A stretch of DNA of 64,000 nucleotides. Origin: Dehalococcoidia bacterium. Lineage in GTDB: Bacteria > Chloroflexota > Dehalococcoidia > Dehalococcoidales > Fen-1064. Below are positions 35,842 to 63,597 of this stretch, one piece after another. Position numbers and translations under genes: made by a program. The notes beneath the pieces are model-generated. The model saw nothing but the letters and a program-made list of their open reading frames with translations, was not told the DNA's origin and did no database searches. Where the stretch lies: contig DUFD01000046.1 in assembly GCA_011171075.1 (NCBI GenBank), positions 1-64,000 on the forward strand, in the 5' to 3' direction. Every line of letters begins with the position of its first letter. The stretch's first letter is position 1.

Positions 35842-36921
35842 TCAGCCCCTCAGCTTTTCAATTACGGCATCGGCCACCTGTGACGTGCCAACGGCATTCT
35901 CGGGTGCATCGGGCTTGAGGTCGTAGGTAACGTTCTTACCTTCAGTAATAACGGCAGCGATGGCCGTTTCCATACGGTCGGCTGCTTCATTTTCACCGAG
36001 ATGATGTAGCATCATCACCCCCGACAGCATCATCGCCATCGGGTTGACCTTATTCATACCGGCATTCTTAGGGGCGCTGCCGTGGGTTGCCTCAAAGACG
36101 GCAATATCATCACCCAGATTGGCTCCGGGGGCCATACCAAGTCCACCGACCAGCCCGGCACAGAGGTCAGACAGGATATCACCGTAGAGATTGGGCGTCA
36201 CCGGCACATCGTACTGCCGGGGCTTTTGCACCAGCTGCATGGCCATATTGTCCACAATCCTGTCTTCAAACTCTACGTCCGAATATTCCGCGGCAATTTC
36301 ACGGGCAACCGAGAGGAAAAGACCGTCGGAATACTTCATGATATTGGCCTTATGTACCGCCGTGATCTTCCGGCGGTGATATTCCCGGGCGTATTCGAAG
36401 GCGAAACGGATGATGTTCTGGCTGCGTGTCTCCGAGATTGCCTTGATGCTTATCCCGGAGTCCGACAGGATACCCTCACCTGTGGCCTGTTGAATAAACT
36501 CCATCAGCCGGGCTGTATCCGGTGTCGCCTTCTCAAACTCAATCCCGCTGTAGAGGTCTTCCATGTTCTCCCTGACAACGACAATATCGACATCTTTAAA
36601 TGGCGACGGCACGCCGGTATACGTCTTGCAGGGTCGCAGGCAGGCATAGAGTCCCAGTGCCTTGCGCAGGGCGACGTTGACACTTCTGAAACCGGAACCG
36701 ACCGGCGTTGTTACCGGACCCTTGAGGGCAACCCGGTTCTTCCTGATAGACTCAAGAACACTCCCCGGCAAGAGCGTGCCATATTGCTCCTGGGCAGCTT
36801 CACCTATCGTGCCAATATCCCAGTTAAAGCTAACACCAGTGGCTTCCAGGACCCGTCGCGTTGCCTCCGTGACCTCCGGTCCGACCCCATCACCGGGGAT
36901 AAAGGTAATGTTATAGGACAT
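35842..36921 (-). CDS. icd: Isocitrate dehydrogenase (decarboxylating dehydrogenase family)
   Basis: 359 residues from the ATG at 36921 (AGGAAGAGG upstream). Start FIPGDGVGPEVT; substrate segment FRSVNVALRKALGLYACLRP with the Ser and Arg ligands expected for isocitrate; VVVRENMEDLYSG; metal site GDILSDLCAG; coenzyme loop EATHGSAPKNAGMNKVNP. In that loop Lys-Asn replaces Lys-Tyr of NADP enzymes and Asp-Ile of NAD enzymes, so cofactor choice is open. It follows the aconitase-type subunits by 17 bases. Homoisocitrate or isopropylmalate dehydrogenase are alternatives. Confidence 0.83.
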   Translation of the reverse strand: MSYNITFIPGDGVGPEVTEATRRVLEATGVSFNWDIGTIGEAAQEQYGTLLPGSVLESIRKNRVALKGPVTTPVGSGFRSVNVALRKALGLYACLRPCKTYTGVPSPFKDVDIVVVRENMEDLYSGIEFEKATPDTARLMEFIQQATGEGILSDSGISIKAISETRSQNIIRFAFEYAREYHRRKITAVHKANIMKYSDGLFLSVAREIAAEYSDVEFEDRIVDNMAMQLVQKPRQYDVPVTPNLYGDILSDLCAGLVGGLGMAPGANLGDDIAVFEATHGSAPKNAGMNKVNPMAMMLSGVMMLHHLGENEAADRMETAIAAVITEGKNVTYDLKPDAPENAVGTSQVADAVIEKLRG

Positions 36922-36938
36922 CCTCTTCCTCACATTGC

Positions 36939-37466
36939 CTACGGTTTCCGACCGGTGGGTAACACGAAATCGCTGTATTTCTTAATATAGGGCAGCAGTC
37001 CACCCTCTTCAAGGATAGCCAGCATTACGTCGGGCAAAGGACTGAATGTAAGCTGGCTACCGGCGGTCAGATTGTTGATAGTACCCGCCTTGAGGTCCAC
37101 CTCCAGTTTATCGCCGTCGCCAATACCATCGGTATCGCAGAGCAATACCGGCAATCCAAGATTGATAGCATTACGGAAAAATATGCGGGCGACCGATTTA
37201 GCGATGATGGCACTGACCCCGGCCATCTTGATGACCAGTGGAGCATGTTCCCGACTTGAGCCGAGGCCAAAGTTTTTGCCAGCCACAATGAAATCGCCCT
37301 CATGCACCCGGACAATGAAGGTCGAGTCGATGTCCTCCATGAGGTGCTTCGCCAGCTCGGGGAGGTTGCTCCTCAGGTGAGCATACCTGCCCGGTATAAT
37401 GTAGTCGGTCGTAATATTGTCCCCGAACTTAAAGGCCCTACCCTCGAGCAACTTCGCATCCTCCAT
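36939..37466 (-). CDS. Aconitase/isopropylmalate isomerase-type small (swivel) subunit
   Basis: 175 residues. GRAFKFGDNITTDYIIPGRY is the swivel-domain start; FGLGSSREHAPLVIKMAGVSAI and FFRNAINLGLP complete the active-site lid. The ATG overlaps the large-subunit stop (TAATG). A true leuC lies in the leu operon at the window end, so this pair more likely acts as aconitase (citrate to isocitrate). Confidence 0.85.
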   Translation of the reverse strand: MEDAKLLEGRAFKFGDNITTDYIIPGRYAHLRSNLPELAKHLMEDIDSTFIVRVHEGDFIVAGKNFGLGSSREHAPLVIKMAGVSAIIAKSVARIFFRNAINLGLPVLLCDTDGIGDGDKLEVDLKAGTINNLTAGSQLTFSPLPDVMLAILEEGGLLPYIKKYSDFVLPTGRKP

Positions 37467-38731
37467 TACCAGAACTCCCTGGGGTCACTTATTTCACCCG
37501 TAACCGCCGATGCCGCTGCCGTAGCCGGACTGCCGAGATAAACAAACGCCTTCGGGTTCCCCATCCTTCCCTGAAAATTCCGATTGGCCGTCGTCAGACA
37601 ACTCTCGCCGTCACCCAGCACCCCCTGGTGCATCCCCAGGCAAGCGCCACACCCTGGTGGCAGAATTACCGCTCCCGCATGTAGCATGATCCCGATATAA
37701 CCAGCAGTCATCGCTTCCAGCAGGACCTTGCGTGATGCCGGGGAAACCACCAGCCGGGTTTGAGGATGACGTTGCCTTCCCTTAAGAATTCTGGCAGCGG
37801 CCGCCATGTCTTCGAGGCGGCCATTCGTACACGTACCGATATATACCTGCTGTATCTTTGTCCCTTTTAGCTCACTTACCGGAGCCGTGTTGTCCACGGC
37901 ATGCGGACAGGAAACCGTCGGCTCCAGCCGGCTGGCATCAATCTCTACCGTCCTCTCATAAACGGCATCGGCATCCGGGGTCAGCGGTTTATAGTCATCT
38001 TCCCTGCCCTGCTCACGGAGATACTCCCGTGTCGTTTCGTCAGAGGGAAACAGCCCTGCCTTTGCCCCCGCCTCGATAGCCATATTAGCTACTGTCAGAC
38101 GCTGTGCGACGCTCATCTGGTCGACAGCACTCCCTCCGAACTCCAGCGCCTGGTAGGTAGCGCCGTCGGCTCCGACCTGTCCGATAAGGTGAAGAATCAG
38201 GTCCTTACCGGAAACGGCACCAGCCAGCTGGCCTGTAACCAGCACCCGGATACTCTCCGGCACACGGAACCATGTTCTACCCAGGCAGAGGACCACCGCC
38301 ACGTCGGTGGAGCCCATACCACAGGCAAAGGCACCCAGTCCGCCGGCCGTAACGGTATGAGAGTCACTACCGACCACCAGTTCGCCCGGCCTGGCAAGCG
38401 ATTCAGCCACTATCTGGTGGCAGACACCATCACCGACATCGTAGATACGGCATCCGGTATCGCAGGCGAAGTCACGCAGGAGCATGTGGTCATTGGAGAG
38501 TTCCTGGCTCGGGCTGGGTGCGGCATGGTCAAGGAACACGGCCGCACAGAGCGAGTCACTTATTCCCTGAAAGCCGGCCGCCTGAAACTGCCTTACTGTC
38601 AGCGGTCCAGTAGTGTCCTGAACGAAGGCCAGGTCTACCCTGGCAATAACGATATCTCCCGCCCGTGCCTCTCCCCCTGACTTATCGCCAAGTATCTTTT
38701 CGGCCAGTGTCCTGCCCACAGCTTCATCCAT
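37466..38731 (-). CDS. Aconitase/isopropylmalate isomerase-type large subunit
   Basis: 421 residues. 4Fe-4S ligands: Cys in VYIGTCTNGRLEDM and the pair in PPGCGACLGMH. Substrate segments VGSDSHTVTAGGLGAFACGMGSTDVA and DTTGPLTVRQF are typical of the LeuC/homoaconitase/split-aconitase group. Together with the small subunit, isocitrate dehydrogenase and the citrate-synthase-type enzyme it gives a full oxidative branch from oxaloacetate and acetyl-CoA to 2-oxoglutarate (inference from context). Confidence 0.83.
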   Translation of the reverse strand: MDEAVGRTLAEKILGDKSGGEARAGDIVIARVDLAFVQDTTGPLTVRQFQAAGFQGISDSLCAAVFLDHAAPSPSQELSNDHMLLRDFACDTGCRIYDVGDGVCHQIVAESLARPGELVVGSDSHTVTAGGLGAFACGMGSTDVAVVLCLGRTWFRVPESIRVLVTGQLAGAVSGKDLILHLIGQVGADGATYQALEFGGSAVDQMSVAQRLTVANMAIEAGAKAGLFPSDETTREYLREQGREDDYKPLTPDADAVYERTVEIDASRLEPTVSCPHAVDNTAPVSELKGTKIQQVYIGTCTNGRLEDMAAAARILKGRQRHPQTRLVVSPASRKVLLEAMTAGYIGIMLHAGAVILPPGCGACLGMHQGVLGDGESCLTTANRNFQGRMGNPKAFVYLGSPATAAASAVTGEISDPREFW

Positions 38732-38850: not shown

Positions 38851-38879
38851 TTGACAATAATCACTCTCTATGTTATGTT
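38851..38879 (+). promoter_or_regulatory. Promoter of leuS and its leader
   Basis: TTGACA 38851-38856, 17-base spacer, TATGTT 38874-38879. Six bases follow before the leader-peptide ATG at 38886, so +1 and the start codon coincide. Confidence 0.8.
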
Positions 38880-38885
38880 ACCATC

Positions 38886-38927
38886 ATGAACAGGCAAGAA
38901 CTTATACTCCTTCTTAGCAGTCCTTAA
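38886..38927 (+). CDS. Leucine-rich leader peptide of leuS, predicted leaderless
   Basis: Thirteen residues, MNRQELILLLSSP, with four Leu and one Ile in five consecutive codons (38901-38915). The ATG is at the predicted transcription start, so no ribosome site exists. It is followed by an antiterminator/terminator module and leuS. Ribosome stalling on Leu codons when charged tRNA-Leu is low would raise leuS transcription. Confidence 0.8.
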   Translation: MNRQELILLLSSP

Positions 38928-38982
38928 CCGGTAAGTGGGTTCGTCTCTTACAGGGGACCGTCCCACGGGACGGTCTTTTTTT
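38928..38982 (+). promoter_or_regulatory. leuS attenuator (antiterminator and terminator)
   Basis: Terminator: GACCGTCCC (38956-38964) pairs with GGGACGGTC (38967-38975), followed by seven T. Competing antiterminator: GTGGG (38935-38939) pairs with CCCAC (38962-38966), and CCG (38928-38930) with CGG (38971-38973). A ribosome at the leader stop codon (38925-38927) would cover GTGGG and let the terminator form; one stalled at the Leu codons would leave it free. A local hairpin GTAAG/CTTAC (38931-38935 with 38947-38951) is also possible. Confidence 0.8.
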
Positions 38983-39019: not shown

Positions 39020-41809
39020 ATGGCAGCGAAGTACATTCCAAACGAAATCGAGAAAAAGTGGCAGGAGAAATGGGCGGAGACCGGCCTATACCGCGTCACC
39101 GAGGACAGCCCGAAACCCAAGTACTACGCCCTCACCATGTTTCCCTATACCTCGGGCGACCTCCACATCGGTCACTGGTACGCTATGGCCCCTTCCGATG
39201 TTCAGGCCAGATTTAAGCGGATGCAGGGATACAACGTACTCCACCCGATGGGCTTCGATGCCTTTGGCCTTAACGCTGAGAACGCTGCCATCAGGCAGGG
39301 TATTCACCCTTACACCTGGACGATGCAGAACATCGAGAATATGCGACGCCAGCTCAAGAGCATCGGGGCTATTTACGACTGGGACCGGGAGGTTATCACC
39401 TGCCTGCCCGAATACTACAAGTGGACACAGTGGTTCTTCCTCAAGCTGTACGAGCACGACCTTGCCTATCGCCAGAAAGCACCGGTCAACTGGTGTCCGA
39501 GCTGCCAGACGGTGCTCGCCAACGAGCAGGTAGTGGACGGCTGCTGTGAACGTTGCGATACGGCTGTCATCCACCGCGACCTTGAACAGTGGTTCTTCCG
39601 GATTACGAAATACGCTGATGAGCTCATGCAGTACGAAGGAATTGACTGGCCGGAGCGGATAAAGATAATGCAGCGTAACTGGGTGGGCCGCAGCACTGGC
39701 ACCGAGATTTCCTTTGCCCTCGACCACCCTGGCGTCGATGAAAAGGAAATCAGGGTCTTCACCACCCGCCCCGATACCACCTTCGGCGTGACCTTCATGG
39801 TACTCGCCCCGGAACACCCGCTGGTGCCCAAACTAACTGTACCTGAGAAAAAGGCGGAAGTCGAGGCCTACATTGAGAGGTCGCGCCGGCAGACCGAGAT
39901 TGAGCGCCTTTCTACTGAGAAGGAGAAGGACGGTGTTTTCACTGGTGCCTATGTGACGAACCGGCTCAATGGGGAGAAGGTACCCATCTGGATTGCCGAC
40001 TACGTGCTGCTGAGCTACGGTACCGGCGCCGTCATGGCCGTCCCGGCCCACGACGAACGTGACTTTGCCTTTGCCCTGAAATACGGACTGCCCGTAATTC
40101 ACGTGATTGACCGCACTGATGGTATCGCCAAGAGTTATGCTATGGCGGGGACGATGCGTCCAGGCCTCAAGCAATCCTTGGAGGATGCCAATATCAGCTT
40201 TACCGAAACGAGTGACGGCGGTCTTTACATCACACTTCGTGGTGACGACCAGATAGACAACTACATTGAGATGGTCAGGGTACATCTACTCCCCGGTTGC
40301 TGGAGCGAGATTGTCGGCTCACGCTGGCTCTTCATCTTCGCCAGCGAAGAGGGTACGACCGTAGTACCTTTTGATTCCATCGAGGCAGAGCGGTCGATTC
40401 TGGCAAAATGCAAGGAGCTCGAGCCAAACGTTCGCAGCAGGCGTACCGTAATGGAGATGTTGTGGGGTCTGGAGTTTTACCGAGATATGCTGTTTCATAC
40501 CGAATACGGGACGATGATTCACTCCGGCCCGCTGACGGGCACACCTGGTGACCAGGCAATCAGCACGGTGACCAAATGGATGGAACAGCAAGGTTTCGGT
40601 CATGCTACCGTCAGCTATCGCCTGCGCGACTGGCTGATTTCGCGCCAGCGTTACTGGGGCGCGCCGATACCGATGATATATTGTGATAAATGTGGCATCG
40701 TGCCTGTCCTAGAGGAAGACCTGCCCGTGCTGCTGCCAGAAGACGCTGAGTTCAAACCCACCGGTGAGTCACCGCTGGCCTACCATGAAGGATTCGTTAA
40801 CACCACCTGCCCCAAGTGCTCCAGTCCGGCCAGACGCGAGACGGACACCATGGACACATTCATGTGCTCGTCATGGTACTTCCTACGCTACTGTAGCCCG
40901 CACTACTCGCAGGCCGCCTTCGACCCCGAAAAGGTGAAGTACTGGATGCCGGTAGACCTCTACACCGGCGGCGCCGAACACGCCGTGATGCACCTGCTAT
41001 ATGTCCGCTTCTTCGTCAAAGCGCTGAGAGATATGGGAATAGCCGATTATAATGAACCGTGTGTCCGACTGTATAACCAGGGACACATCATCGCCGAGCA
41101 GCGAAAAATGAGCAAGTCGCGGGGTAATGTAATTACTCCTGATGAGTACGTTGCCGACATGGGCGTAGACACCGTACGTGTTTACTTTATGTTCCTCGGT
41201 CCCTGGGAGCAGGGAGGCGAGTGGGATGACAGCGGTATCAGCGGGGTCAGACGATGGCTAAACCGTGTCTGGAATCTGGTGCTGGAGGAATACACTCCCA
41301 GAGCAGAGAACGATGGAGTACGCACCGAGTTACGGCGGACCACTCACCAGACCATCAGGAAGGTGACCGGTGATATTGAGAGACTGCGTTTCAATACCAT
41401 GATTGCCGCCCTGATGGAATTCACCAACTACCTCGCTAGAATTAAAGAGGCTGGCAGTGTCAGCCAGGCCGATTGGAAAGAGGTGGTGGACATTCTGCTG
41501 CTACTCCTGGCACCGTCAACTCCCCATATCACGGAAGAGCTCTGGGAGCAGACCGGACACAACTACAGCATCCACAGCCAGGACTGGCCACAGTGGGACG
41601 AGGCGCTGGCTAAAGATGAAGAGGTCACGCTGGTGGTCCAGGTAAACGGCAGGCTGCGCGACCGCATCACTGTCCCTATAAGTATCACCGAGGATGAAGC
41701 CAAACAACTGGCACTGGAGAGCCCCAAGTCCAAACCTCACATTGAGGGCAAGCAACTGGTGAGGGCGATATATGTCCCCCATAAGCTGGTGAATTTGGTG
41801 GTGAAATGA
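39020..41809 (+). CDS. leuS: Leucyl-tRNA synthetase
   Basis: 929 residues, longer than the about 860 of E. coli. HIGH motif as FPYTSGDLHIGHWYAM, KMSKS as QRKMSKSRGNVITPDEY, editing-domain TTRPDTTFGV, zinc-like CPSCQTVL and CERC, and the LRDWLISRQRYWGAP signature. About 115 residues near positions 370-487 (with RVHLLPGCWSEIVGSRWLF) are inserted where most bacterial LeuRS proceed directly from the editing domain to the catalytic core. Charges tRNA-Leu. Controlled by the leucine leader upstream. Confidence 0.97.
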   Translation: MAAKYIPNEIEKKWQEKWAETGLYRVTEDSPKPKYYALTMFPYTSGDLHIGHWYAMAPSDVQARFKRMQGYNVLHPMGFDAFGLNAENAAIRQGIHPYTWTMQNIENMRRQLKSIGAIYDWDREVITCLPEYYKWTQWFFLKLYEHDLAYRQKAPVNWCPSCQTVLANEQVVDGCCERCDTAVIHRDLEQWFFRITKYADELMQYEGIDWPERIKIMQRNWVGRSTGTEISFALDHPGVDEKEIRVFTTRPDTTFGVTFMVLAPEHPLVPKLTVPEKKAEVEAYIERSRRQTEIERLSTEKEKDGVFTGAYVTNRLNGEKVPIWIADYVLLSYGTGAVMAVPAHDERDFAFALKYGLPVIHVIDRTDGIAKSYAMAGTMRPGLKQSLEDANISFTETSDGGLYITLRGDDQIDNYIEMVRVHLLPGCWSEIVGSRWLFIFASEEGTTVVPFDSIEAERSILAKCKELEPNVRSRRTVMEMLWGLEFYRDMLFHTEYGTMIHSGPLTGTPGDQAISTVTKWMEQQGFGHATVSYRLRDWLISRQRYWGAPIPMIYCDKCGIVPVLEEDLPVLLPEDAEFKPTGESPLAYHEGFVNTTCPKCSSPARRETDTMDTFMCSSWYFLRYCSPHYSQAAFDPEKVKYWMPVDLYTGGAEHAVMHLLYVRFFVKALRDMGIADYNEPCVRLYNQGHIIAEQRKMSKSRGNVITPDEYVADMGVDTVRVYFMFLGPWEQGGEWDDSGISGVRRWLNRVWNLVLEEYTPRAENDGVRTELRRTTHQTIRKVTGDIERLRFNTMIAALMEFTNYLARIKEAGSVSQADWKEVVDILLLLLAPSTPHITEELWEQTGHNYSIHSQDWPQWDEALAKDEEVTLVVQVNGRLRDRITVPISITEDEAKQLALESPKSKPHIEGKQLVRAIYVPHKLVNLVVK

Positions 41810-55696: not shown

Positions 55697-55725
55697 TTGA
55701 CAATAAACAAAAACTGTGATATTTT
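55697..55725 (+). promoter_or_regulatory. Promoter of the ilv-leu operon
   Basis: TTGACA 55697-55702, 17-base spacer, TATTTT 55720-55725. Exactly six bases separate it from the leader-peptide ATG at 55732, so the start codon coincides with the predicted +1, as upstream of leuS. Confidence 0.82.
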
Positions 55726-55731
55726 CATATC

Positions 55732-55785
55732 ATGAGCACGCAGTATGCAACCTTAGTACTTATCGTTATCAGCCGTTACCGGTGA
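55732..55785 (+). CDS. Branched-chain leader peptide of ilv-leu, predicted leaderless
   Basis: Seventeen residues, MSTQYATLVLIVISRYR, with the unbroken run Leu-Val-Leu-Ile-Val-Ile (codons 8-13, 55753-55770), all three amino acids made by the downstream operon. There is no room for a ribosome site between the promoter and ATG. It stops at TGA 55783-55785, immediately before the antiterminator sequence. Confidence 0.85.
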   Translation: MSTQYATLVLIVISRYR

Positions 55786-55833
55786 GTGGGTTCGTCTCGC
55801 ACGGGGAGCCGTCCCACGGGGACGGCTTTTTTT
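55779..55833 (+). promoter_or_regulatory. ilv-leu attenuator (antiterminator and terminator)
   Basis: Terminator: GCCGTCCC (55808-55815) pairs with GGGACGGC (55819-55826), followed by seven T. Antiterminator: GTGGG (55786-55790) pairs with CCCAC (55813-55817), 22 bases apart exactly as before leuS, plus CCG (55779-55781) with CGG (55823-55825). A ribosome reaching the stop codon would mask GTGGG; one stalled at the Leu/Val/Ile codons would not. Confidence 0.83.
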
Positions 55834-55862
55834 ATTATTAGCAGTAAAGGCAGGCGGAAATA

Positions 55863-57524
55863 ATGAAAAGTGATGCGGTCAAGAAGGGTATTGAAAGGGC
55901 AGCGCACCGTTCGCTGCTGCATGCGGTCGGGGTCAGCCTGAGCGACCTCGATAAGCCATTCGTGGGTATCATCAACAGCTTCAGCGAGATTGTCCCCGGC
56001 CACATCAACCTGCGGAGTATCGCCGAAGCGGTCAAGCAGGGTGTAGCCAGGGGTGGTGGCGTCTCCTTCGAGGTCAACACCATTGCCGTCTGTGATGGCA
56101 TCGCCATGGGCCACGCCGGCATGAAGTACAGCCTGCCCAGCCGGGAGCTGATAGCCGACTCCGCGGAGACGGTTGCCGAAGCCCATGCCTTCGATGCCCT
56201 TGTCTTCATCCCCAACTGTGACAAGGTAGTGCCCGGCATGCTCATGGCAGCCATGAGGCTCAACGTGCCGTCTATCTTCATCAGCGGCGGCCCGATGCTC
56301 GCGGGACACATTGGCACCGAGGGCGGTCGTAAGTTTGACGTCATATCCCTTTTCGAGGCAGCCGGCAGGGTTACGGCAGGTGAGATGAGCGAAGAGGAAC
56401 TGGCCAGGATGGAAGAACTGACCTGTCCCGGCTGCGGAAGCTGTGCCGGCATGTTCACCGCCAACACGATGAATTGCCTCACCGAGGTGCTGGGGATGGG
56501 TTTGCCCGGAAACGGTACCATTCCGGCCGTCGACGCCAGACGGATGATACTGGCCAGAAAAGCCGGCGAGGAGGTTATGCGACTCCTGGCCTCTGGTACG
56601 TGTCCACGGGATATTGTCACCGCGGCCGCGATAGACAACGCCCTCACGGTTGATATGGCCCTGGGTGGCAGCACTAACTCGGTGCTGCACCTGATGGCCA
56701 TCGCCAATGAGGCAGGGATTAGCTTCCCGTTGACCAAGGTGAACGAACTCTGCCAGAGTACCCCGCACATCTGCCTGCTCAGTCCCGCCGGCGAAAACCG
56801 CATCGAAGACCTGGATAGGGCGGGTGGTATTCCCGCGGTGATGAAAGAGGTCGGTGACCTCCTCAATCTGGAACTACCCACCGTAACCGGGAAATCGGTA
56901 GGGGAGAACATTAAAAATAGCCAGGTGCTTGACAGAGAAGTAATCCACTCCAGGGACAATGCCTATTCCGCCACTGGTGGTATCGCCATCCTCTTCGGCA
57001 ACCTGGCGCCTGACGGTGCCATTGTCAAGAAGGCAGCAGTCGCCCCGGAGATGATGGTACACCAGGGACCGGCCAGGGTGTTCGACTCCGAGGAGGAAGC
57101 CACTACCGCTATCATGAAAAAAGATATGAAGAAAGGCGATGTAGTCGTTATCCGGAACGAAGGCCCCAGGGGTGGCCCGGGTATGCGGGAGATGCTGACA
57201 CCCACCGCCCTGCTGAGCGGTATGGGCATGGACAAGGATGTAGCCCTCATCACCGACGGGCGTTTCTCGGGCGGTTCCCGTGGTGCTGCCATCGGCCATG
57301 TCTCGCCGGAAGCAGCCAGTCGCGGACCGATTGCCGCCCTCCGAGACGGGGACATCATCAAGATAGATATCCCGGATTGCAAGCTCGAGATAGAGCTCAG
57401 CGACGAAGAAATTTCCCGGCGGCTGGCAGAACTCAGCGAGTTCGAACCGAAAATAAAAACAGGCTATCTGAGCCGATACATAGAGAAGGTGACTTCGGCT
57501 AGTACCGGAGCCGTGTTCAGTTAG
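55863..57524 (+). CDS. ilvD: Dihydroxy-acid dehydratase
   Basis: 553 residues. Fe-S cysteines in [11 protein letters not shown] and [30 protein letters not shown] and the catalytic-region [17 protein letters not shown] signature are present. It makes 2-oxo acids for Val, Leu and Ile. First structural gene after the attenuator; ilvB follows by 13 bases. Confidence 0.97.
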
Positions 57525-57537
57525 GAGGAGATGCAAT

Positions 57538-59235
57538 ATGAAGATGACTGGTGCCCAGATGATGCTGGATGGTCTAGTCAAGGAAGGGGTCGAGGTTACC
57601 TTCGGCATCCAGGGCGGTAAGGTTATCCCCCTATTCGACACCATGCCCCAGTTCCCGCAGATACATCACGTGCTGACACGGCATGAGCAGGGAGCTGCCC
57701 ACGCCGCTGAAGGCTACGCCCGCGCCACGGGAAAGGTCGGGGTATGCATCGCAACCTCCGGACCCGGAGCCACCAACCTGGTTACCGGTATCGCCGATGC
57801 TTTTCTCGACTCGGTACCGATGGTGGCGATAACCGGTCAGGTCAACCGACCCGACATCGGCAAGGACGCCTTCCAGGAGGTAGACATCACCGGCATTACC
57901 CTGCCGATTACCAAGCATAATTACCTAGTGCTGGATACTCCTTCAATGCCACGGATTGTCAGAGAGGCTTTCTATCTGGCACGTACCGGTCGACCCGGCC
58001 CGGTACTGATTGACGTGCCCGGCGATGTCTTCATGGAGGAGACAGAGTTCCACTATCCCAAGGAGTTCGACCTGCCCAGCTACAAACCGACACTCAGGGG
58101 GCACCCGGCACAGATTAATAAGGCCGCCAAGGTAATCAATGATGCCCGGCAACCTGTTATCCTGGCCGGGCGGGGTGTCATCGTCTCCGGAGCGTACGCC
58201 GAACTGAAAGAGCTTGCCGAGAAAGCGCAGATACCGGTAATAACAACCCTGCTGGGCATCAGCGCCATACCGGAGAGTCATGTCCTCTCCTACGGGTGGC
58301 TGGGTATGCACGGCATGGTCCACGCCAACATGGCCACCGACGCCGCCGACACGATAATCGCCATCGGTATGCGCTTCGATGACCGGGCCACTGCCAAAGT
58401 AAGCGCTTTCAATACCCGCGCCCGCATAGTCCATATCGACATTGACCCGGCGGAGATTGGCAAGAACATAAAGGTAGACGTTCCGATTGTCGGTGACGTC
58501 AAGACCGTGCTTACACAACTAAATAAAGTGGTAGAAACCAGCCAGCATATCGACTGGATAAGCCAACTGGATGAGTGGCGCCGGACACACCCGTCACTCA
58601 ATATCCGCGACAGCGAGTCCGTACTGCCGCAGTATGTCGTCCGGCAGATTTACGAGGCCACCAAGGGGGAGGCCACCATTGTAACCGGCGTGGGACAGCA
58701 CCAGATGTGGGCGGCGCAGTATTATCACTACGACCACCCCAACTCCCTCATCACGTCAGGTGGTCTGGGCACGATGGGCTTCGGGCTGCCCGCGGCGATA
58801 GGTGCGCAGGTTGGCCGTCCCGAAGCTATAGTCTGGTGCCTCGATGGTGACGGCAGCTTCCAGATGACAATACAGGAGCTGGCCACAATCCAGCAGGAGA
58901 GACTGCCACTCAAGATTGCCATCCTCAATAATGGTTTCCTGGGAATGGTCAGGCAATGGCAGGAGCTGTTCTTCGGCAAGCGCTATGTGGCCACGCCGTT
59001 AAGCGGCCCGGACTTCGTCAAGGTGGCCGAAGCCTATGGCATCCCGGGAACAATGGCAAAACGCAGAGAAGATGTTATTCCGGCTATCGAGCAGGCGCTG
59101 AGTGAACCGGGGCCGTTCTTAATCGACTTCCGCATCGAGCCGGAAGAGAATGTCTATCCCATGGTTAAGCTCGGTGGTAGCCTGGTAGAGCTACTGGAAG
59201 GTGAAGACGTAAAGAAAGGGGTGGTAAAATCATGA
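57538..59235 (+). CDS. ilvB: Acetolactate synthase, large subunit
   Basis: 565 residues. ThDP-activating Glu in LTRHEQGAAHAAEGYARA; IPVITTLLG; ThDP/Mg site GDGSFQM...NNGFLGMVRQWQ. It condenses pyruvate with pyruvate or 2-oxobutyrate. Its stop overlaps the ilvH start by 4 bases. Confidence 0.97.
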   Translation: MKMTGAQMMLDGLVKEGVEVTFGIQGGKVIPLFDTMPQFPQIHHVLTRHEQGAAHAAEGYARATGKVGVCIATSGPGATNLVTGIADAFLDSVPMVAITGQVNRPDIGKDAFQEVDITGITLPITKHNYLVLDTPSMPRIVREAFYLARTGRPGPVLIDVPGDVFMEETEFHYPKEFDLPSYKPTLRGHPAQINKAAKVINDARQPVILAGRGVIVSGAYAELKELAEKAQIPVITTLLGISAIPESHVLSYGWLGMHGMVHANMATDAADTIIAIGMRFDDRATAKVSAFNTRARIVHIDIDPAEIGKNIKVDVPIVGDVKTVLTQLNKVVETSQHIDWISQLDEWRRTHPSLNIRDSESVLPQYVVRQIYEATKGEATIVTGVGQHQMWAAQYYHYDHPNSLITSGGLGTMGFGLPAAIGAQVGRPEAIVWCLDGDGSFQMTIQELATIQQERLPLKIAILNNGFLGMVRQWQELFFGKRYVATPLSGPDFVKVAEAYGIPGTMAKRREDVIPAIEQALSEPGPFLIDFRIEPEENVYPMVKLGGSLVELLEGEDVKKGVVKS

Positions 59236-59780
59236 CCGGAAACAAGCATACGCTGGTTGCCCTCGTCGAGGACAGACCCGGGGTACTGAACCGGATGGCC
59301 AGTCTATGTCGGCGGCGAGGCTTCAACATCGAGAGCATTGCCGTAGGACACAGCGAAACACCGCGCCTTTCGCGCATGACCATCGTCGTCGACGGTACCA
59401 ACGCCATGATTGAGCAGCTGCGAAAGCAGCTGGACAAGCTGGTGGTTACCATGAAGGTATCGGACATCACCTCGGATAATATCGTTGTCCGTGAACTGGC
59501 GCTTATTAAGGTTAAAGCCAATTCCGAGACCCGGAGCGAGATAATACAGATTGTGGATATATTCCGCGCGGATATCGTCGACGTGGCCGAAGAATCGGTA
59601 ACCGTCGAGGTCACCGGAGACGAAGATAAGATAGATTCACTTCTCAGTCTGCTCCGTGGATTCGGTATTAAGGAGTTATCCAGGACAGGACGAATTGCTA
59701 TGACCCGTGGAGGCACCAGTCTTCTCGGAGAGGACAAAGATAAAACTGGAGGGAGAAGACAAAAGAAGGCAGCATCCTGA
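59232..59780 (+). CDS. ilvH: Acetolactate synthase, regulatory small subunit
   Basis: 182 residues. N-terminal ACT domain HTLVALVEDRPGVLNRMASL with GFNIESIAVGHSE, then the second ACT-like domain (LALIKVKAN, FRADIVDVAEESVTVEVTG). It carries Val feedback inhibition and stimulates IlvB. Translationally coupled to ilvB. Confidence 0.96.
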   Translation: MTGNKHTLVALVEDRPGVLNRMASLCRRRGFNIESIAVGHSETPRLSRMTIVVDGTNAMIEQLRKQLDKLVVTMKVSDITSDNIVVRELALIKVKANSETRSEIIQIVDIFRADIVDVAEESVTVEVTGDEDKIDSLLSLLRGFGIKELSRTGRIAMTRGGTSLLGEDKDKTGGRRQKKAAS

Positions 59781-59828
59781 GATCTAGGATTAGGCCTGAA
59801 AAGATGAAGATTGTCACTCACTGTTACA

Positions 59829-59857
59829 TTGATTTCGCCCAGTTTATCCTGTAATGT
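59829..59857 (+). promoter_or_regulatory. Possible internal promoter for the usp gene
   Basis: TTGATT 59829-59834 and TAATGT 59852-59857 with a 17-base spacer, in the 106-base gap between ilvH and the universal stress protein gene. It may allow stress-dependent expression of usp and downstream ilvC independently of the attenuator. Confidence 0.5.
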
Positions 59858-59886
59858 AATGATGGATTCATCACCGGAGGTACAGA

Positions 59887-60831
59887 ATGTTCCGTAAAAT
59901 GCTGGTTTTGCTTGATGGCTCCGAGCTTTCTGAGGTAGTCTTCCCCTTCGCCAAGGAGCTCGCTGCCAGACTAAATCTGGACGTGACTATGCTGCAGGTC
60001 TATGGTGATATCGGACGTAACTTCGTACCAGTACACAAGGCCTACATCGAGCGTGCCGCCGAGACAATAAAGAGTCAGATAGCGGATGTCCAGGAGAGAC
60101 TCGGTATCCCACCGCAGGAAAAACAGGCGGAAGTCCGGGGAGAACTAGCTGACGGTCATTATGCTGATGAGATACTGAGCTACGCTGAGAGGAACGATAT
60201 CGACCTTATTCTAATGGCCAGCCACGGGCGTTCGGGGATTCGGCGCTGGCGCATGGGGAGCGTTGCTGACAAGGTGCTAAGGGCTGCGAAGGTACCGGTA
60301 CTGTTTATTCGAGCCGGTGCTGAGGACGCCACCCCATACGACAAGTGGCCAACAAAATCAATAGTAGTCCCCCTGGATGGTTCGGAAAGAGCGGAATCAG
60401 TGCTTCCCCACGTTATAGCGCTGGCCAAGCAACGCACCACCGAGCCGATAATCGTAAACCTTATCAGGATTTGCGATCCACCGGTAGCTCCGTCCTACTA
60501 TTCTCCGGAGCTTTCCGGGGTACCCCTTAACTGGGGAGAATTCATGGAACAAGAGATGGACCGCTGTAAACAGAACGCCAGTGACTACCTTGAGAATATA
60601 GCCAAACAGCTCGATGACCAGGGTATTAAGGCAGAGTCCACGGTGCTTGTGGGTCAGGCCGCCGATGAAATAATAGAATATGTCAGCAAGAACCCGTACA
60701 GCATCGTCGTCATGGCGACTCACGGGCGCACCGGGTTGAGGCGGCTCGTCTTCGGCAGCGTCACCGAGAGTGTCCTGCACGCAGTCTCTAACCCGATACT
60801 ACTGACCAAGCCGGAACAAGCTGGCTCGTAG
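59887..60831 (+). CDS. Tandem universal stress protein (two UspA domains)
   Basis: 314 residues in two UspA halves. Half 1 (1-145) starts [19 protein letters not shown] and has [20 protein letters not shown]; half 2 (about 155-312) starts [19 protein letters not shown] and ends [18 protein letters not shown], the G-2X-G-9X-G(S/T) ATP-binding motif. It sits between ilvH and ilvC, interrupting an otherwise standard ilv order. Confidence 0.93.
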
Positions 60832-60854
60832 GAGGTAACGGGGAGGAAGGGGCA

Positions 60855-61850
60855 ATGGCAAAGATATACTATGATAACGATTGTGATTTGAAACTGCTCG
60901 ACGGGAAAGTAGTTGGTATCATCGGCTACGGCAGCCAGGGGCATGCCCAGGCCCAGAACCTGAGAGATAGCGGCTGCCAGGTAATCGTCGCTGAGGCTGA
61001 GGGAAGCCCGGGCTGGAATAATGCCAGGGAAGCCGGCTTTAAAGTAACAAAAGCCGCCGAAGTAGCCAGAGAAGCCGATATTATCTCAATTCTGGTCCCT
61101 GATGAACTGCACGGCAGGATTTACAACGAGTCAGTCCTGCCCGGACTGGATGCCGGTAATACCCTGTTATTCTCACATGGATTCAGCATTCACTTCGGGC
61201 AGGTATTACCACCGTCGGACGTAAACGTTATCATGATAGCGCCCAAGTGCCCCGTCCATATGCTAAGACAGCTATACACTGAGGAGGTCGGGCCTCCGGC
61301 GATTGTAGCCGTGCACCAGGATGCCACCGATAATGCTAAGGATATTGCCCTGGCCTACGCCAAGGGCATCGGTTGCAGCCGGGCCGGCGTCATCGAGACT
61401 ACCTTTGCTGAGGAGACCGAGACCGACCTCTTCGGGGAGCAGACCGTGCTCTGCGGTGGTATTACCGGCCTTATAAAAGCAGGCTTTGAGACGCTGGTAG
61501 AAGCTGGCTATCAACCCGAGATAGCCTATTTTGAAATCCTTCACGAGCTAAAGTTGATTATCGACCTTATCTACCAGGGTGGCCTCAGCTATATGCGGTA
61601 CTCCGTCAGCGATACCGCCGAGTACGGCGACTATATAAGCGGGCCAAGAATCATTGACGAGATGGTAAAGCAGGAGATGGCCGAGGTGCTGGCCGAAATC
61701 CAGGACGGTACCTTTGCCAAGGAGTGGATACTGGAAAATCAGGCCGGTCGACCTGTCTTCAATGCGCTGAGACGCATCGAGGCAGAGCACCCCATCGAGG
61801 TGGTGGGGGCTGAGCTACGCCAGATGATGCCCTGGCTCAAGCAAGGCTAG
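60855..61850 (+). CDS. ilvC: Ketol-acid reductoisomerase, class I
   Basis: 331 residues. [33 protein letters not shown], catalytic [18 protein letters not shown] and [14 protein letters not shown]. The cofactor loop after strand beta-2 reads A-E-A-E-G-S-P-G-W (46-54); the usual Arg and Ser residues that bind the NADPH 2'-phosphate are absent and two Glu are present, suggesting NADH use. Otherwise a normal class I enzyme. Confidence 0.96.
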
Positions 61851-62013
61851 TTACAGGAATGTGCAAAATTGATACGCACTGAGTATGAAAGAATAAGTGA
61901 ATACCTGAGATTGTATTCCGCGTTTGGATTTTCCGGCAGATACAAACTCATCCTTACTGGCCCCTCTCCTTTATTGGGGAGGGGATGATGGCTGGTGTAT
62001 TTAGTACAGTCAT

Positions 62014-62064
62014 AGAGAAACACAACACCCGCAGGGGGAATGCCCTTTGGGTTGTGTCTTCTCT
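62014..62064 (+). promoter_or_regulatory. Long hairpin just upstream of leuA
   Basis: AGAGAA-ACACAAC (62014-62026) pairs with GTTGTGT-C-TTCTCT (62051-62064) with one bulge, and the loop contains GGGGG and CCC. It ends 2 bases before the AGGAGG site of leuA. Position suggests control of translation or RNA processing within the ilv-leu transcript. The rest of the 226-base gap holds a family A-like CCCCTC/GAGGGG palindrome fragment at about 61956-61985. Confidence 0.5.
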
Positions 62065-62076
62065 CAGGAGGATGTC

Positions 62077-63597
62077 ATGGAAAAGGTAATTATCTTCGAT
62101 ACCACTCTCCGGGACGGTGAGCAGGCAGCCGGTGGTTCAATGAACGTCTCGGAGAAACTGGAAATAGCCAGACAACTGGAAAAGCTCGGCGTGGATGTCA
62201 TTGAGGCCGGCTTTCCGGTAACATCGCCGGGTGATTTCGAGGCGGTACGCCTCATTGCGGAAGAGGTGCGCACCCCTGTAATCTGCGTGCTCACCCACGC
62301 CAATCTCGAAGCGGTGGACCAGAGCTGGGAGGCGGTCAAGGGAGCGGCACACCCGTGCATCCATATCGTTCTGTCGTCTTCAGACATTCACCTCTTCTAC
62401 CAGCTGAGGAAGAGCCGTGAGGAAATCCTGAAGATGTCCTGCGATACGGTAGCCAGGGCGAGGAAATACTGCGATAACGTTGAGTTCTCCGCAATGGACG
62501 CCAGTCGTACCGACCCGGCATACATCTATCAGATACTTGAAGCGGTAATAGACGCCGGGGCCACCACTGTGAACATCCCTGATACGGTGGGCTACGCCAT
62601 GCCCGACGAGTTTGGCGGCCTTATCGACAACGTCTTCAAGAACGTGCCAAATATCAACAAGGCAATCGTCAGTGTACACTGCCATAATGACCTGGGCCTG
62701 GCCGTAGCCAACAGCCTGGAGGCCATCAAGCGGGGGGCCAGACAGGTGGAAGGCACCATTAACGGCATCGGTGAAAGGGCGGGCAATGCCTCGCTCGAGG
62801 AGATCGTCATGGCCATCAAAACCCGACAGGACTTTTACGACCTCTATACCGATATCGACACAACCCAGATATACAAGACGAGCCGGCTGGTCAGCGAGTT
62901 GACCGGTACCCCGGTCCAGCCCAACAAGGCTATTGTCGGTGCCAACGCCTTCCGACATTCGTCGGGTCTCCACGTTGACGGTGTCATCAAGATGCGGACG
63001 ACCTTTGAGATAATGGACCCCAAATCGGTAGGGGTACCCTCCAGCAGTCTGGTGCTGGGCAAGACCAGCGGACGGCATGCCTTCAGGGAACACCTGGCCG
63101 AACTTGGTTACAGCCTGTCCGAGGAAAATTTCAGTCGTGCCTTTACCGCCTTTAAAGAGCTGGCCGATAAGAAGAAGAACGTCACCGATAAGGACATTGA
63201 ATCGATAGTTGCTGAGGAACAGCGTACCGTCTCCGAGGTCTACCACCTCGACCGCCTACAGGTGACCTGTGGCGACCGGGGGATACCTACTGCCTCTGTC
63301 CAGCTTGTAGCACCTGAAGGCAAGGTTCACTCCGAGGCTGCTATCGGCACCGGGCCGGTGGATGCAGTCTGCAAGGCAATCGACAAGATAGTGGCTGTAC
63401 CATGCAAGCTCACCGAGTTCACGGTGAAGTCTGTCACCGAGGGGATTGACGCCATCGGTGAGGTGCTGATAAGGGTAGAAAGTGAGGGCCTGACCTATAC
63501 AGGTCGCGGTGCGGATACTGACATTATCGTTGCCAGCGCCAAGGCCTATATCAACGCCCTTAACCGGCTGCTGTCCGATAGGAAAACTATTTCATAA
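62077..63597 (+). CDS. leuA: 2-isopropylmalate synthase
   Basis: 506 residues from the ATG at 62077 (AGGAGG 5 bases upstream); the frame opens at 62047 but those residues fall in the hairpin. DTTLRDGEQAAGGSMN, metal-binding SVHCHNDLGLAVANSLEA, TINGIGERAGNASLEE, and a C-terminal regulatory domain (about 395-500) for Leu feedback. First committed leucine step. Confidence 0.96.
   Translation: MEKVIIFDTTLRDGEQAAGGSMNVSEKLEIARQLEKLGVDVIEAGFPVTSPGDFEAVRLIAEEVRTPVICVLTHANLEAVDQSWEAVKGAAHPCIHIVLSSSDIHLFYQLRKSREEILKMSCDTVARARKYCDNVEFSAMDASRTDPAYIYQILEAVIDAGATTVNIPDTVGYAMPDEFGGLIDNVFKNVPNINKAIVSVHCHNDLGLAVANSLEAIKRGARQVEGTINGIGERAGNASLEEIVMAIKTRQDFYDLYTDIDTTQIYKTSRLVSELTGTPVQPNKAIVGANAFRHSSGLHVDGVIKMRTTFEIMDPKSVGVPSSSLVLGKTSGRHAFREHLAELGYSLSEENFSRAFTAFKELADKKKNVTDKDIESIVAEEQRTVSEVYHLDRLQVTCGDRGIPTASVQLVAPEGKVHSEAAIGTGPVDAVCKAIDKIVAVPCKLTEFTVKSVTEGIDAIGEVLIRVESEGLTYTGRGADTDIIVASAKAYINALNRLLSDRKTIS

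Follow-up and report, generated by a model that had tools for sequence, protein, structure and literature searches.

A putative leaderless leucine attenuator upstream of leuS in Dehalococcoidales, with related leaders before ilvD and valS

Introduction

Leader-peptide attenuators are known from Escherichia coli, where the leader of the ilvGMEDA operon carries Leu, Val and Ile codons, like a leader found at position 55732 of the DNA described here, and where pheST shows that a synthetase gene can be under leader-peptide control, in that case by pheM. Both of these E. coli leaders have Shine-Dalgarno (SD) sites, unlike the putatively leaderless ones in the window, by which we mean the whole 64,000-nt stretch of Dehalococcoidia DNA that was analysed. 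T-boxes (RF00230) likewise sense tRNA aminoacylation upstream of synthetase genes. In the actinobacterial LEU element, associated with leuA, a pseudoknot is formed whose base stem pairs the Leu codons with the leuA SD sequence; judged by its description, it is set apart from the leader reported here by the different gene and by the intrinsic terminator of the latter.

The closest described systems are in Streptomyces. Classical attenuators of leuS were predicted for S. avermitilis and S. coelicolor by Seliverstov in 2005, in a paper that also mentions pheST attenuation (PMC1262725). For S. lividans, RNA-seq revealed a leaderless leader peptide, LeuL2 (MRAVRLLLSEPR), upstream of the gene, with a hairpin and its uridines behind it (PMC8079986). 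A transcript whose first bases are the leader's ATG is also described for trpL of S. meliloti (PMC7298713). The 5′ ATG and stalling at codons for the sensed amino acid are what we propose for the present leader too, the gene controlled by trpL being one of Trp biosynthesis rather than a synthetase gene.

Results

The leader upstream of leuS

All elements of the leader lie on the plus strand of the window. A sigma-70-type promoter (38851-38879) can be read as TTGACA (38851-38856), a 17-nt spacer and TATGTT (38874-38879), with TG preceding the −10 box; boxes of the form TTGAC(A/T) and TAnnTT are present in 15/15 leuS leaders. A 6-nt discriminator separates the end of the −10 box at 38879 from an ATG at 38886, which is at or adjoining the +1 predicted from promoter spacing. 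This ATG opens an ORF of 13 codons and a stop (38886-38927), encoding MNRQELILLLSSP, in which Leu occupies codons 6, 8, 9 and 10 (codon starts 38901, 38907, 38910 and 38913). Region 2, the sequence GUGGG at 38935-38939, begins 10 nt past the start of the stop codon and forms the 5′ half of the outer helix of a predicted antiterminator. The remainder of the antiterminator (38943-38966) comprises an inner helix, GUCUCU/GGGGAC (38943-38948/38953-38958), and the sequence CCCAC (38962-38966), which doubles as part of an arm of the intrinsic terminator, GGACCGUCC-CACG-GGACGGUCU plus a U-run (38955-38982; hairpin located within 38952-38979, T-run 38976-38982). The presumed controlled gene, leuS (39020-41809), encodes a leucyl-tRNA synthetase of 929 aa, identified by NCBIfam TIGR00396 with 1016 bits against a cut-off of 548. 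The promoter, the Leu ORF at 38886, the alternative helices and leuS had all been named in the original prediction, and each is found as claimed.

Two features of the surroundings may be mentioned. Directly upstream of the leuS promoter is a divergent cluster on the minus strand (35842-38731), comprising large and small subunits of aconitase/isopropylmalate-dehydratase type and an isocitrate-dehydrogenase-like gene. In LeuS itself, which is 929 aa long in this genus, matches to most relatives in the order (frames of ∼820 aa) break at residues 363/493, pointing to an insert of ∼130 aa (residues about 363-493) that G091, G096 and G104 would share.

The leuS leader shows no T-box. An Rfam scan of the window gave no matches at the gathering score, and a permissive search gave only sub-threshold noise at the leuS and ilvD leaders; up to E 5, leucine leader families (such as RF00512, so named in PMC3766115) were absent from the hits at leuS. 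The ileS gene of the same genome (G000), by contrast with leuS, carries a T-box at 116 bits and served as positive control (L298, G000:C42:1500-2600, minus strand); ileS T-boxes are also present in two relatives (L288, L289). Since gathering-score matches are absent, we reject the idea that leuS is preceded by a T-box or another known RNA, and the proposal of a Leu leader peptide in place of a T-box is supported.

Conservation upstream of leuS

The search with the LeuS of the window as query covered the genus (3 genomes), the family (14) and the order (156). Upstream DNA was examined for all 14 family genomes and for 58 further leuS loci from 57 genomes of the order, so that 71 of the 134 genomes in the order that gave a LeuS match are covered; locus L088 (48 nt) was too short. 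A promoter, Leu-bearing mini-ORF, GUGGG-like region and terminator precede leuS in 14/14 family genomes. The peptides vary, as in MKRQRLLLALSIDSP, MKKQDLTLTLSIDSP, MSTHILALALTVT and MNGHLLSLALTITYSDR, with spaced Leu positions kept. A lack of conserved Leu codons in relatives would have refuted the original prediction, and the comparison came out in favour of the prediction. Of the 58 other leuS loci only one has such a leader (G119, of a different family), with none in the upstreams examined from 11 genomes of the order labelled f10. G119 holds both a leuS-type and an ilvD-type leader (L066, L241).

Might a constitutive terminator or processing site simply have a Leu-rich ORF beside it by chance? 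Terminator-like matches alone are not rare (2 found against 2.3 expected in 3 kb), and the single-sequence fold energy of the G000 leader is unremarkable (z −1.18; 27 of 200 shuffles equally good), so that it is comparison across genomes that decides. The element is kept throughout the family (14/14 genomes) and recurs at paralogous sites, which refutes a chance origin, a reading that we regard as scarcely credible; judged by this family-wide conservation, the leuS leader in the window is beyond chance.

Related leaders before ilvD and valS

A covariance model built from the 15 leuS leaders was searched in the 156 order genomes, and all matches listed with E≤0.007 included 48 non-leuS places. 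Six of these were excluded, one inside a coding region (G067) and five upstream of ilvD that lack a leader ORF, leaving 36 leaders before ilvD (36 genomes) and six before valS (6 genomes). The five ORF-less upstreams (L254, L256, L257, L258 and L259, in G056, G109, G135, G140 and G038) have a promoter, a GUGGG-like region and a terminator but too little space for a leader ORF.

One of the ilvD leaders is in the window itself (match 55732-55833, E 6e-16), also on the plus strand. There a promoter TTGACA-17-TATTTT (55697-55725) is followed by the ORF MSTQYATLVLIVISRYR (55732-55785, with its stop), which carries Leu, Val and Ile codons, and by a GUGGG region 2 and terminator (55786-55838). Downstream are ilvD, ilvB, ilvH, an ORF labelled usp-like on reading rather than by family search, ilvC and leuA (55863-63597).

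The valS leaders encode short Val runs, such as MKRTVVVVTI, MNTTVVVVTK and MTINPVVVVM, and occur in 6 of the 14 family genomes (L242, L243, L244, L247, L251 and L252). Three of the six downstream genes were tested and exceed the NCBIfam valS cut-offs, the other three being assigned by similarity to these. No such leader lies within the 420 nt examined upstream of valS in G000, G001 and G002.

A scan of 393 genomes across the class with model R2 gave nine matches at E≤0.001, eight of them within the order; the ninth (G372) was rejected, the promoter-ORF arrangement being absent on reading. Of four matches at E≤0.01 among 400 genomes of the phylum (G000, G074, G521 and G832), those in G521 and G832 are partial and were judged to be chance. 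Both scans used stricter filters and scored few candidates per genome, so that absence there is a soft result. Weak matches within the family (G009, G010 and G012) were likewise judged to be chance, and a weak match at ileS of G002 (E 5) proved to be the T-box, so that ileS is rejected as a member of this leader class.

In a tree of 57 leaders (∼150 columns, 18 of 54 branches open) the valS leaders group together (91/87), whereas those of leuS and ilvD are interleaved by genus, with weak resolution. This interleaving suggests repeated recruitment or gene conversion.

Codon content and the downstream gene

In all three gene classes the leader is a short ORF rich in codons that match the gene downstream. 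The leuS leaders (n = 15) contain 48 Leu, 4 Val and 15 Ile in 209 residues, the ilvD leaders (n = 36) 90 Leu, 85 Val and 62 Ile in 515, and the valS leaders (n = 6) 6 Leu, 22 Val and 3 Ile in 60. The association between codons and gene gives a chi-square P of 3e-10, a value that treats residues as independent in rows that are related by descent. Leu is written in leuS leaders as CTC (22), CTT (20), TTA (3), CTA (2) and TTG (1), and in ilvD leaders with all six codons. In the leuS leader of G006 there are just 2 Leu, with Phe occupying the last site. This natural codon swap on one RNA chassis supports ribosome-mediated attenuation.

Thr, Ser and Ile are also common in the leuS leaders. The presence of 15 Ile and 28 Thr, together with the 4 Val, might suggest a general branched-chain sensor of the ilv type, responding to Leu, Ile and Val (or Thr) together rather than to Leu specifically, and the interleaving of leuS and ilvD rows in the tree points the same way. 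We think this rather unlikely, however, given that Val makes up 85/515 residues in ilvD leaders against 4/209 in leuS leaders, and that the leuS leader of the window has 4 Leu, 1 Ile and no Val. A Leu-specific leader remains the preferred reading.

Position of the start codon

The distance from the −10 box to the ATG is 6-9 nt in 15/15 leuS leaders, 6-10 nt in 36/36 ilvD leaders and 8 nt in two of the six valS leaders, and hence 6-10 nt in 53 of the 57 overall. The other four valS leaders have 15-21 nt, and in these a purine-rich AGAG/AAAGAG stretch precedes the ATG; the automatic promoter call for valS of G011 was poor. The short spacing is consistent with leaderless starts in these 53 leaders, and the contrast with the longer, purine-rich 5′ stretch of the four valS leaders would favour that reading.

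A leader-peptide attenuator could also operate with a longer 5′ UTR, the true start being upstream of 38851. The four long-spaced valS leaders indicate that members of this class can do so, and the +1 of the leuS leader is taken from promoter spacing. This arrangement is nevertheless unlikely for leuS: both boxes and their distance to the ATG are kept in every leuS leader, and the −10 box fills the space before the ATG, where no SD-like motif was seen in the sequences examined.

Pairing, spacing and folding

Helices were sought in each sequence separately; the MAFFT alignments A1-A4 place region 2 out of register between genera, so that covariation on them was left uncounted. In 56 of the 57 leaders at least 5 bp can form between region 2 and arm 3, as GUGGG/CCCAC in 43, and where region 2 varies, as in CUGGAG/CUCCAG (G121 ilvD) and GUGGAC/GUCCAC (G008 valS), it still pairs and the terminator is kept. 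Antiterminator and intrinsic terminator are predicted to be mutually exclusive, although the shuffle test applied to individual sequences is weak: pairing is better than in composition shuffles at p<0.05 in 18/57 leaders (3/15 leuS, 9/36 ilvD and 6/6 valS), and in the leuS leaders of G006, G012 and G013 it is no better than in the shuffles.

The leading edge of a ribosome lies ∼13 nt beyond the first base of the A-site codon. Counted from the stop codon, region 2 lies 3-15 nt away in 56/57 leaders and 17 in one, near enough to be masked wholly or partly. Counted from the start of the last regulatory codon, it lies 21-33 nt away in 15/15 leuS leaders, 21 nt in 6/6 valS leaders and 18-23 nt in 34/36 ilvD leaders, distances at which a stalled ribosome should leave it free, and 12 and 15 nt away in the other two ilvD leaders.

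For the nascent G000 leader up to arm 3, the predicted fold is the GUGGG/CCCAC antiterminator, whether or not the upstream part is included. In the complete leader the terminator is predicted to be energetically favoured even with a stalled ribosome, implying that antitermination must be kinetic. No strong or conserved 1:2 protector hairpin is evident, and none seems to be needed.

That the G000 antiterminator is predicted without a ribosome also suits a switch independent of translation, in which a protein or polymerase kinetics sets the helices and the ORF is incidental, as do the five ilvD upstreams that keep the other elements with no room for an ORF. Yet such a switch would not account for codons that match the gene in three classes, nor for the distances to region 2, which are preserved for the stop as well as for the regulatory codons, and we consider it very unlikely.

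Discussion

We conclude, with a probability of about 0.88, that transcription attenuation at the leuS leader is ribosome-mediated and responds to the level of charged leucyl-tRNA. From its promoter, ORF, helices, spacing, conservation and codon-gene match we infer a start site, ribosome stalling and a direction of regulation, as follows. Transcription would begin at the AUG, or within about 3 nt of it, and a ribosome would initiate on the leaderless mRNA. When Leu-tRNA is ample the ribosome would arrive at the stop codon, its leading edge masking GUGGG wholly or partly; the terminator would then form, leaving leuS untranscribed. When Leu-tRNA is scarce the ribosome would stall at the Leu codons, at least 21 nt upstream of GUGGG. 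The latter could then pair with the CCCAC of the terminator's 5′ arm, allowing RNA polymerase to continue into leuS.

How new is this arrangement? The original prediction held that control of leuS by a leaderless leader peptide was undescribed, a claim overtaken by the Streptomyces attenuators of PMC1262725 and PMC8079986; since these are published, the arrangement itself is not new. They share with the present leader an ORF with Leu codons, a hairpin with a U-run, and leuS downstream; the leaderless start, seen by RNA-seq in S. lividans, is predicted here. The likeness is one of features rather than of aligned RNAs, and the hosts belong to different phyla. We found no literature on leaders in Dehalococcoidia or Chloroflexi, or on valS leader peptides, in the literature searched; Lopatovskaya 2010, cited in PMC4833913 and devoted to this very topic, may contain a prediction for Chloroflexota. 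What looks new is the host, Chloroflexota of the Dehalococcoidales type, together with the shared, re-coded chassis and its valS member.

On balance we favour the view that a modular leaderless chassis has been copied and re-coded within one order, with Leu codons before leuS, Val codons before valS and Leu, Val and Ile codons before ilvDBHC-leuA, beside a T-box at ileS. If this is true, valS would be a new target for a leader-peptide attenuator. The natural series of codon swaps (Leu, Val and Leu/Val/Ile on one RNA chassis) makes specificity directly testable.

Finally, these leaders would add Chloroflexota to Streptomyces as hosts in which a leaderless leader peptide attenuates a tRNA synthetase gene, and the organisms concerned appear to employ T-boxes as well as leader peptides. 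The leader codons may allow the amino-acid response of each operon to be predicted in these uncultured bacteria.
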